Source of the DNA: Devosia sp. MC521
GTDB lineage: Bacteria > Pseudomonadota > Alphaproteobacteria > Rhizobiales > Devosiaceae
Direction: 5' to 3'
Length of the DNA stretch: 64,000 nucleotides
Assembly (NCBI RefSeq): GCF_014127105.1
Contig: NZ_CP059902.1
Location: forward strand, 1-64,000
Positions 20,867-61,412 of the stretch are shown here, piece by piece (the stretch's first letter is position 1; every line of letters begins with the position of its first letter). Under the pieces are notes generated by a model that ran no database searches, was not told the origin of the DNA, and worked only from the letters and a program-made list of their open reading frames with translations. The position numbers and the translations under genes are program-made.

Positions 20867-20941
20867 GCGCCCTTCGTCTATCGGTTAGGACGGCACCCTT
20901 TCACGGTGCAGAGAGGGGTTCGATTCCCCTAGGGCGTACCA
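20867..20941 (+). tRNA. tRNA-Glu (UUC), copy 1
   Basis: 75 bases beginning GCGCCCUUCGUCUA. Acceptor stem GCGCCCT pairs with AGGGCGT (last pair G-U). The D arm has GGTTAGGACGGC. The anticodon stem GCACC/GGTGC encloses CTTTCAC with anticodon TTC (Glu). The T arm is GAGGGGTTCGATTCCCCT. CCA is encoded. Confidence 0.97.
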
Positions 20942-20999: not shown

Positions 21000-21074
21000 G
21001 CGCCCTTCGTCTATCGGTTAGGACGGCACCCTTTCACGGTGCAGAGAGGGGTTCGATTCCCCTAGGGCGTACCA
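21000..21074 (+). tRNA. tRNA-Glu (UUC), copy 2
   Basis: Identical over all 75 bases to the copy at 20867, with the same anticodon TTC and encoded CCA. The direct repeat also extends one to two bases upstream (ATG). The 58-base spacer is not repeated. Confidence 0.97.
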
Positions 21075-59098: not shown

Positions 59099-60163
59099 AT
59101 GCAAGGGATCACATTATCGCGCCGGTTCTATGAGGACTTGGTGGCTCCGTTTCTGGCGGAGCGAGTGCCGAACATGCCCTATGCCGCAGCGTTGTTGGGA
59201 TTTGGCTCCGACGTCTTGGGCTATGACGATGAGATGTCGCGCGACCACAATTGGGGCCCGCGGGTCCATATTATCGTCAGCGAGGCCGATTTTGACGCGC
59301 ATGCGCGCGCGTTGGTCGTCGGTTTCATCGCCCACGCGCCGCAGAGCCTGCATGGCGAGCCTATCGCGTGGCGATCGCGCCCGCATCCGCCCGCCAACCG
59401 TCGTTGGGCTGCTGGTGATATGGGTCACGGGCTGGAGGTCCACACCCTAGCTGGGCGCTTGGAGGATCATTTTGCGCGCGGCGATATCAATTGGACCGCT
59501 AGCGACTGGTTGGGCGTTCCTGAACAAAAGCTCTTGGAGTTTTGTGGCGGCGCAGTGTTTCGGGACGACGCTGGCACGCTCACCGCTGCGCGCGACGCGT
59601 TGGCCTATTTGCCCGATGATGTGTGGCACTATAAAATCGCCGCGCAATGGGCGCGGATCGGGGAAGAACAGGCCTTTGTCGGGCGCACCGGGATGAATGG
59701 GGATGATCTTGGCTCGCGCATTATTGCGGCGCGTTTGGTGCGGGACGTGATGCGCTTGGCCTATCTGCTGGAACGGCAGTATGCGCCCTATGCCAAATGG
59801 TTCGGCACTGGCTTTGCCCAACTGACAGTTTCCGACAAGCTTAGACCTGTGCTGGAGCGCGTGTTGGGCGCAAAATACTGGGGCGAGCGCGAAAGTGCCT
59901 TGGCGGACGCGTATCTGCTGATGGCGCAATTGCAAAAATCCCTCAACATCGCCCCGTTTGACGGAAAGATTGGGCCCTATCACGAGCGTGGATTTCAAAC
60001 GATCAATGTGGAAGCGGCCGTCGAGGCGGCGCTTGCCAAGATTGGCGATAGTACCCTTCTGGCGCGCTTTCCCTTTGGAGGGATCGATCAGCTCTCCGAT
60101 GCCACCCCTGTGCTGGATCGTGCCGCTGTCTCACGGCGGGTGAACTCGGCAATCGAAAACTAA
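59099..60163 (+). CDS. DUF4037 (nucleotidyltransferase-like) protein
   Basis: A 354-residue protein with an N-terminal nucleotidyltransferase-fold part: LLGFGSDVLGYDDEMSRDHN, where GS and acidic residues match the NTase motif, then a DUF4037-specific region (WGPRVHIIV) and a helical C-terminal half (IIAARLVRDVMRLAYLLERQ). ATG 59099 follows GAGGGAG. Activity and role are unknown. No toxin-antitoxin partner is visible next to it. Confidence 0.85.
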   Translation: MQGITLSRRFYEDLVAPFLAERVPNMPYAAALLGFGSDVLGYDDEMSRDHNWGPRVHIIVSEADFDAHARALVVGFIAHAPQSLHGEPIAWRSRPHPPANRRWAAGDMGHGLEVHTLAGRLEDHFARGDINWTASDWLGVPEQKLLEFCGGAVFRDDAGTLTAARDALAYLPDDVWHYKIAAQWARIGEEQAFVGRTGMNGDDLGSRIIAARLVRDVMRLAYLLERQYAPYAKWFGTGFAQLTVSDKLRPVLERVLGAKYWGERESALADAYLLMAQLQKSLNIAPFDGKIGPYHERGFQTINVEAAVEAALAKIGDSTLLARFPFGGIDQLSDATPVLDRAAVSRRVNSAIEN

Positions 60164-60164
60164 A

Positions 60165-60193
60165 ACGGCCCTCTTTGGGGAGGGCCGTTAAAT
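60165..60193. terminator. Bidirectional terminator
   Basis: ACGGCCCTC pairs with GAGGGCCGT over a six-base loop. It can end the DUF4037 gene (+). The minus strand reads into TTTTAGTTTT, so it also ends the micro-operon at 60197-61267. Confidence 0.8.
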
Positions 60194-60196
60194 AGG

Positions 60197-60271
60197 CTAG
60201 GTCACGAGAAAAATAATAATGATCAGCCAAATCGGCACGCCGAGAAGCCAGAGAGCGAGACCTTTGAACAT
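60197..60271 (-). CDS. 24-residue membrane peptide (micro-operon, third gene)
   Basis: A 24-codon frame with a near-perfect AAGGAG ribosome binding site nine bases before the ATG. The product starts MFKGLALWLLGVPIWLI and continues with a run of Ile and Phe, so it is one hydrophobic membrane helix with a short N-terminal charge. It ends before the bidirectional terminator. It lies 25 bases downstream of the four-helix protein gene. I recall similar short peptides in other Gram-negative genomes but know no function. Confidence 0.7.
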   Translation of the reverse strand: MFKGLALWLLGVPIWLIIIIFLVT

Positions 60272-60296
60272 GGTGTTCTCCTTGTTTCTTTAAGCG

Positions 60297-61172
60297 CTAG
60301 AAGCGGCGGAAGACGCCAGCGTGAACGGTGTTTTCGTCGCGATGATTGCCGCCCTTCTGGGCCGCCCAGAACGCGCCAATGGCCGAAACCAAAGACGATG
60401 CTGCGATCAGGAAGGCGGCGAGAATGCCCGTGTTGCGGGCCACACGGGCCGCTTCAAGTGCGGTGGCGCGGGCCTCGGCAATCGTTGCGTTCACTTGATC
60501 AACGCGCGCTTCAGCTTCAGCTGGGGGCAGTGCGGTGGTCGAGGCGACAAGGCCAACAAGATAGCTGCGGTCTTCGGTGCTGATCTCACCATCGGTGAGG
60601 GCTGATTGCGCATAGATCCGTAGAGCTTCGTCACGGGCGACGCCGGGATCGACCGGAATGCTGGCACGGAACAGAGTGTCGACAAAATAATCATTGGGGG
60701 TTGAGTCATCGGCAGCCATTGCTGTGGCCGCAGTTGTTGCTGCACTGCCCACAGCGGAGCCAAGGGCCCCAATGCCGCCGACAGCCAGCGCTGCACCAAA
60801 AATCATCGCGCCGCCCCAGACCAAGAGGCCATGGGCACCATCGCGCAGGTCGGATTCATCGGCGGTGGCGTCGAATTTGCGGCGACGCAATCTGCCAGTG
60901 AGATAGCCTCCGGCCATAAAGCTGGAGATCTGGATCCAGAGAAACCAGAGGGCGGCTCCTATGCCGACGAGCCAGACTGGAGCGCCGTCGCGACCATGAA
61001 AGTCGACAAAGTTAAGTCCAATGGCAGAACCAAAGCTAATCAGGACCAGCGAGATAGCGGTGGCCAGAACGATCCCCGCAATAATCGCGGGCCAATCGAC
61101 ATAGCTGCTTTCTGCTACAGGCGCGGGAGCGGTGTCTATGACGGTAACACCGGGGGGCGTGTTGAGTGCCAT
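60297..61172 (-). CDS. Conserved membrane protein (PhnA-like / hypothetical)
   Basis: A 291-residue protein with about five membrane helices (IIAGIVLATAISLVLISFG, IGAALWFLWIQISSFMAGGYL, HGLLVWGGAMIFGAALAVGG, GILAAFLIAASSLVSAIGAF). A soluble segment in the middle (residues about 150-235) is acidic and may be a coiled coil (PPAEAEARVDQVNATIAEARA). ATG 61172 follows GGGAGGAG. Rhizobiales relatives are annotated PhnA-like or hypothetical, without a phosphonatase active site. It is the middle gene of a three-gene operon. Confidence 0.8.
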   Translation of the reverse strand: MALNTPPGVTVIDTAPAPVAESSYVDWPAIIAGIVLATAISLVLISFGSAIGLNFVDFHGRDGAPVWLVGIGAALWFLWIQISSFMAGGYLTGRLRRRKFDATADESDLRDGAHGLLVWGGAMIFGAALAVGGIGALGSAVGSAATTAATAMAADDSTPNDYFVDTLFRASIPVDPGVARDEALRIYAQSALTDGEISTEDRSYLVGLVASTTALPPAEAEARVDQVNATIAEARATALEAARVARNTGILAAFLIAASSLVSAIGAFWAAQKGGNHRDENTVHAGVFRRF

Positions 61173-61192
61173 GAGATGCTCCTCCCTTTCGC

Positions 61193-61267
61193 TCAAGCCA
61201 AGCCGATAAAGGAAAGAATGGCGAGGACGATTACGACCAGACCAACGAGGTAAATAATGGAGTTCAT
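61193..61267 (-). CDS. 24-residue membrane peptide (micro-operon, first gene)
   Basis: A 24-codon frame with GAGAGG upstream of its ATG and a clear promoter further upstream. The product starts MNSIIYLVGLVVIVLAILS and ends with a hydrophobic Ile/Gly/Leu/Ala tail, so it is a single membrane helix with almost no charge. It ends 20 bases before the four-helix gene's ATG. Equal length and type to the third gene, but no close sequence similarity. Confidence 0.72.
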   Translation of the reverse strand: MNSIIYLVGLVVIVLAILSFIGLA

Positions 61268-61286: not shown

Positions 61287-61315
61287 TTTGTATCCAAGAG
61301 GTAATCCCTTGTCAG
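61287..61315 (-). promoter_or_regulatory. Promoter of the micro-operon
   Basis: CTGACA (-35, 61310-61315) and TACAAA (-10, 61287-61292) with an exact 17-base spacer; the transcript should start about 15 bases before the first peptide's ATG. GGAAC lies about 16-17 bases upstream of GATT in the same area, a weak resemblance to an EcfG-type stress promoter. Confidence 0.65.
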
Positions 61316-61356
61316 GCTGGATGGTTCCGGTGGTCGCCGCAAAGCTGCCGCAAGAT

Positions 61357-61387
61357 AAACAAAAGCGGGAGCCCAAAGGCCCCCGCT
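61357..61387 (-). terminator. Terminator of the NMT1 substrate-binding protein gene
   Basis: On the minus strand AGCGGGGGCC pairs with GGCTCCCGCT (one G-U) over TTTG, followed by TTTTGTTT. It separates the ABC importer from the micro-operon. Confidence 0.82.
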
Positions 61388-61412
61388 CTGCAAAGCTGAT
61401 TGGGTAGAAAAC

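Follow-up and report, generated by a model that had tools for sequence, protein, structure and literature searches.

Several microproteins of under 50 aa, among them CydX, KdpF, and AcrZ, consist of a single helix and bind larger membrane proteins, and CydX and KdpF are encoded beside the large membrane partners of which they are subunits. A microprotein gene beside that of a membrane partner is a known kind of arrangement, and most bacterial membrane microproteins are without a known partner. We know of no operon partner for YohP of E. coli. This 27-aa protein is, like the peptides described here, a tiny, stress-associated, single-helix membrane protein (PMC12719787). SEP6 of S. meliloti, which is under 30 aa long and has one transmembrane helix, is translated, occurs in the membrane fraction, and is conserved in Hyphomicrobiales (PMC10117765). 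Promoters of the sigma factor EcfG have the consensus GGAAC-N16-CGTT, and EcfG is confined to one class of bacteria, with Gammaproteobacteria, Acidobacteriota, and Desulfobacteraceae lying outside it (PMC3892343).

The genome of Devosia sp. MC521 carries a three-gene unit on the minus strand, in which two 24-aa peptide genes, here called P1 and P3, flank the gene of a larger membrane protein, here called the middle gene. The three ORFs, their intergenic gaps of 20 and 25 nt, and a good Shine-Dalgarno sequence for each (AGAGAGG, GGGAGGAG, and AAGGAG) are present just as the first-pass annotation of this DNA described them. The features of the locus, in coordinates of the window (the whole 64-kb stretch that was analyzed), are the following.

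61362..61389, minus strand: terminator of the upstream transporter gene, from a terminator scan
61324..61328, minus strand: GGAAC, -35 element of an EcfG-type promoter, 61 nt 5' of the P1 ATG
61303..61306, minus strand: GATT, degenerate -10 element (nGTT in relatives), spacer of 17 nt
61193..61267, minus strand: P1, 24-aa single-helix peptide MNSIIYLVGLVVIVLAILSFIGLA, identified by codon-level conservation and adjoining middle-gene homologs across phyla
60297..61172, minus strand: middle gene, 291-aa inner-membrane protein with four predicted transmembrane helices and a predicted periplasmic helical domain, from homologs, AlphaFold, and hydropathy
60197..60271, minus strand: P3, 24-aa single-helix peptide MFKGLALWLLGVPIWLIIIIFLVT with the motif LxWLLGxPI, identified by codon-level conservation
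60164..60189, minus strand: terminator hairpin 3' of P3, from a terminator scan (fold -18.9 kcal/mol, z = -5.8)

The terminator at 61362..61389 separates the transporter gene from the P1-middle-P3 operon. The hairpin at the other end is strong; in the scan, however, it counts as a terminator on the minus strand only, which leaves the earlier term "bidirectional" unsupported. A gene for a DUF4037 protein (59099 to 60163) is convergent with the operon and ends at the common hairpin. Elsewhere in the 64-kb window, an Rfam scan found nothing beyond two tandem tRNA genes (20867 to 20938 and 21000 to 21071), which lie 61 nt apart and have identical scores (57.1 bits).

At the intact Devosia loci, the gene order P1-middle-P3 is the same, with P1 present at 67 of 67 and P3 at 66 of 67. 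The 65 distinct nucleotide sequences of P1 depart from the consensus by 391 synonymous and 77 nonsynonymous codon changes, against 233 and 223 under a null in which alignment columns were shuffled among positions sharing the consensus base; for P3 at the Devosia loci, the counts are 277 and 186, against 146 and 357. Because the substitutions in both are strongly biased toward synonymous changes, far beyond chance, P1 and P3 are both real genes, and the codon-level check proposed earlier for the peptides came out clearly in favor of each. Both are short ORFs of the translated type with one hydrophobic helix, and both are single copy in their own genome, vertically conserved, and under strong purifying selection in Devosia. 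Residues L18, S19, and G22 of P1 are identical in all 85 distinct P1 sequences. A test for helical periodicity in the conservation of the peptides, such as a packing face should produce, gave no significant result (p = 0.13 and 0.84); P1 residues Y6, G9, and V12 and the P3 motif W/G/P had in part been fixed by the search pattern. A Devosia neptuniae plasmid record derived from RefSeq, whose gene table is incomplete, gives the middle gene as a "hypothetical protein" and does not list the peptide genes. In one small Devosia genome of 2.0 Mb (G053, locus L035), the operon is decaying, with an indel in P1 and a split middle gene that has two TAG codons in frame.

P1 and P3 resemble CydX, KdpF, and AcrZ in being under 50 aa with one helix and, for CydX and KdpF, also in having a partner-adjacent gene. 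They differ from all three in that neither matches a Pfam profile at an E value of 1 or an NCBIfam profile, in that their partner belongs to an unannotated family with four transmembrane helices, and in that two interchangeable peptide types occur upstream or downstream of it and also alone. A match of one P1-type sequence to the YohP family (PF25659) at an E value of 0.089 and 13.2 bits, against a cutoff of 27, does not make it a member. DUF3309 proteins (PF11752) are like P1 and P3 in that, at a few loci, they take the place of a peptide next to the middle gene and unlike them in having about 52 aa and two helices; P1 and P3 themselves have no match to this profile, and only separate ORFs of 51 to 52 aa do. 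SEP6 fits the P1 or P3 type in size, helix, membrane fraction, and range, a comparison made by description that serves as a lead. A search for the P1 and P3 peptide sequences found none within the literature searched.

The middle protein was first described as a five-helix protein. Hydropathy instead gives four transmembrane segments, and the AlphaFold model, which is confident and was built with 97 homologs (pLDDT 87.3, pTM 0.76), has long helices at residues 27 to 56, 66 to 95, 104 to 153, and 217 to 280, with three short helices between residues 159 and 213, which replaces the earlier count with four transmembrane helices and a helical domain. To judge from the distribution of charges, the loop near residues 96 to 115 and the C terminus would be cytoplasmic and the domain at about residues 154 to 216 periplasmic. 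W27, G33, G52, G88, Y90, G93, R94, and R96 in the N-terminal half and E106, R110, D111, G115, W119, R169, D201, R223, G274, R278, and D279 in the rest of the protein are near invariant, and several of the charged residues among them are predicted to face the cytoplasm. No credible family was found for the middle protein in Pfam, NCBIfam, or PADLOC. Neither sequence nor fold gave a credible relative among the solved structures of the PDB, and Foldseek searches of the PDB with two middle-protein models gave no match with an E value under 0.2. Likenesses of the helical domain to TerB (3 of 97 members, best E value of 0.0024) and to the N terminus of HU (E value of 0.006) were rejected as chance.

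The middle-protein homologs come from Alpha- and Gammaproteobacteria, Acidobacteriota, and Desulfobacteraceae, and for 92 of the 97 in the nonredundant set (about 72% identity), a microprotein gene of the P1, P3, or DUF3309 type lies next to the middle gene, a conserved linkage to one larger membrane protein, though solo peptide copies exist. Partner type and gene order track the middle-protein tree, with 17 architecture changes against 55.6 under shuffling and none of 200 shuffles as low, a comparison that shows only the clustering of the architecture label. In 347 genomes of the order to which Devosia belongs, 59 of 71 core middle genes have P1 or P3 within 300 nt on the same strand, the chance of such proximity being near 1e-4 per hit, and P1 or P3 occurs somewhere in 67 of the 69 genomes that encode a core middle gene (Fisher test, 3e-26, with kinship ignored). 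In a phylum-wide sample, a peptide gene is adjacent at all 30 of the best loci. P3 lies downstream of the middle gene in Pseudomonas, Methylophaga, Agitococcus, Edaphobacter, and a Desulfobacteraceae MAG and upstream of it in Rhizobium and Mesorhizobium; P1 lies upstream in Brucella, Agrobacterium, and Bosea, and a Methylocystis locus has both P1 and P3 with the middle gene. The peptide position is taken by a DUF3309 microprotein at loci L279 and L280 and, judged by eye, at L278 and L281, one of these four loci also having the P3 variant MLPGVIMWLLGVPLVVIVLLYLIF downstream. Peptide adjacency is not generic, as a natural control shows: in a divergent paralogous subfamily, most members are without adjacent peptides (2 of 15 have one); the lower-scoring matches overall have an adjacent peptide in 7 of 52 cases, some of these being fragments of shorter or split core members. 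Linkage, co-occurrence, and a partner type that follows the tree argue that P1 and P3 function together with the middle protein. Gene context thus gives strong backing to the earlier proposal that the peptides are its partners, which may extend to physical binding or regulation.

A relaxed EcfG-type pattern, GGAAC-N15-18-nGTT, is present 5' of 104 of 151 nonredundant P1 genes, against 1.4 in shuffles, and mostly lies 58 to 67 nt before the P1 start. The reverse-strand control gave 12 of 151 and 20 of 137, which is above the shuffles and perhaps reflects divergent promoters and conserved coding sequence. Among Devosia P1 genes, 58 of 64 have an EcfG-type promoter, tightly positioned and at the same position as GGAAC in the window, which bears out in relatives the earlier hint of a connection to ecfG; at operon-internal Devosia P3 genes, the motif occurs in 1 of 65. 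Genes in the solo context have EcfG-type promoters in 10 of 18 cases for P1 and 9 of 9 for P3. The 17-bp-spacer promoter of the first-pass annotation fared in two ways, as the promoter scan found none of the sigma-70 type at the operon, but GGAAC-N17-GATT (61328..61303, minus strand) is present, with one -10 mismatch from the EcfG-type pattern. Relatives of the operon resemble EcfG regulon genes in carrying the motif at a fixed upstream distance, and the window copy departs from them in its degenerate -10. NepR (PF18557) is encoded in the genome (1.3e-14, above the cutoff), and the presence of PhyR-NepR-EcfG was judged from this NepR search. To judge from these sequence patterns, the operon in Devosia sp. 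MC521 may depend on EcfG.

At Pseudomonas-type loci, TGGCAC-N5-nTGC, a site of the sigma-54 type by its consensus, is present in 9 of 9 cases (L298 to L301, L304, L307, L312, L242, and L251) against 0.06 expected, and no AlgU- or RpoS-type promoters were found at these nine loci. Because these sequences first suggested the pattern and then supplied its count, and because the loci are mutually related, it is a lead rather than nine independent cases. With sigma-54-type sites in Pseudomonas and EcfG-type sites in Hyphomicrobiales, the linkage between peptides and middle protein appears to outlast a change of regulon.

The reading that we hold to be probable, though well short of certain, is that of an EcfG stress operon encoding an inner-membrane complex, in which the middle protein would be the core and P1 and P3 accessory subunits, their binding being deduced from gene context. 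The operon, self-contained and with a terminator on each side, would most likely be transcribed by the general-stress sigma factor EcfG. The core would have four transmembrane helices, cytoplasmic N and C termini, a periplasmic helical domain, and a cytoplasmic loop carrying the invariant charges (GGYxxGRxR...E...RD..HG..W). As single-pass microproteins, P1 and P3 may insert beside this core and stabilize, assemble, or tune it; accessory subunits packing on the middle-protein helices, as in CydX and KdpF, with AcrZ also likened, would be the simplest mechanism, and the complex may help to maintain the membrane under stress. Codon conservation, cross-phyla operon linkage, a partner type that follows the tree, and the promoter motif in relatives count for the subunit model, and peptide-only genomes, the lack of a significant helical face, the degenerate -10 in the window, and the lack of a resembling solved structure count against it.

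P1 or P3 occurs with no recognizable middle protein in 65 of the 347 genomes of the order; because of these genomes, the peptides are not obligate subunits of the middle protein and must also act elsewhere. The same genomes favor the view that each peptide is a general-stress membrane microprotein in its own right, acting on the bilayer or on many partners, which has its regulon and transcript in common with the middle gene but does not bind the middle protein. The EcfG-type promoters of solo copies agree with this, as do some neighbors resembling stress genes of the DUF1328, Dps, or YihY type, and the E. coli protein YohP (27 aa) alters membrane fluidity and potential under stress (PMC12719787). 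However, P3 adjoins the middle gene even outside the class of EcfG (PMC3892343), namely, in Gammaproteobacteria, Acidobacteriota, and Desulfobacteraceae, the sigma-54-type promoters of Pseudomonas indicate that the linkage survives a change of regulon, and the identity of L18, S19, and G22 across all P1 sequences exceeds what bulk hydrophobicity would need, so that full independence seems rather unlikely. In stress, P1 and P3 probably serve the membrane more broadly, the middle protein being a partner that they often have.

The position of the peptides has also to be weighed. In many relatives, some 10 nt separate the end of P1 or P3 from the middle-gene start, a spacing that would suit translational coupling and hence a P1 that is a leader, a coupling or attenuation uORF whose translation, and not its product, controls the middle gene. 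Such a role is very unlikely, since the amino acid sequence is conserved beyond the reading frame alone and the same peptides are found downstream of the middle gene or alone elsewhere. Still a little less credible are small hydrophobic toxins of the TisB/Fst kind, to which the neighboring middle protein would be either unrelated or immunity-like: size, hydrophobicity, and stress-type promoters are compatible with toxins, but vertical conservation, single copies, purifying selection in Devosia, and an association with a large membrane protein that holds steady across phyla all speak against them.

For the accessory-subunit reading, the cross-phyla linkage, the partner swaps that follow the tree, and the peptide-poor paralogs point to one specific unannotated membrane protein. 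Neither the middle family nor the P1 and P3 families, nor the exchange of these peptides, is described in the databases and literature searched. We give about even credence to the broader view of an undescribed multiphylum inner-membrane complex, with a core of four transmembrane helices, at least three interchangeable microprotein subunits (P1, P3, and DUF3309), and lineage-specific stress sigma factors. If binding holds true, DUF3309 and a portion of the general stress regulon would be joined with two orphan microprotein families in one testable complex, and the hosts of the middle-protein family include tractable ones, namely, Pseudomonas and rhizobia. Four solo P3 loci (L259, L260, L263, and L265) lie near DUF1328-, Dps-, and zinc-ribbon-like genes, the neighbors having been named by eye, suggesting that these loci are small stress islands.
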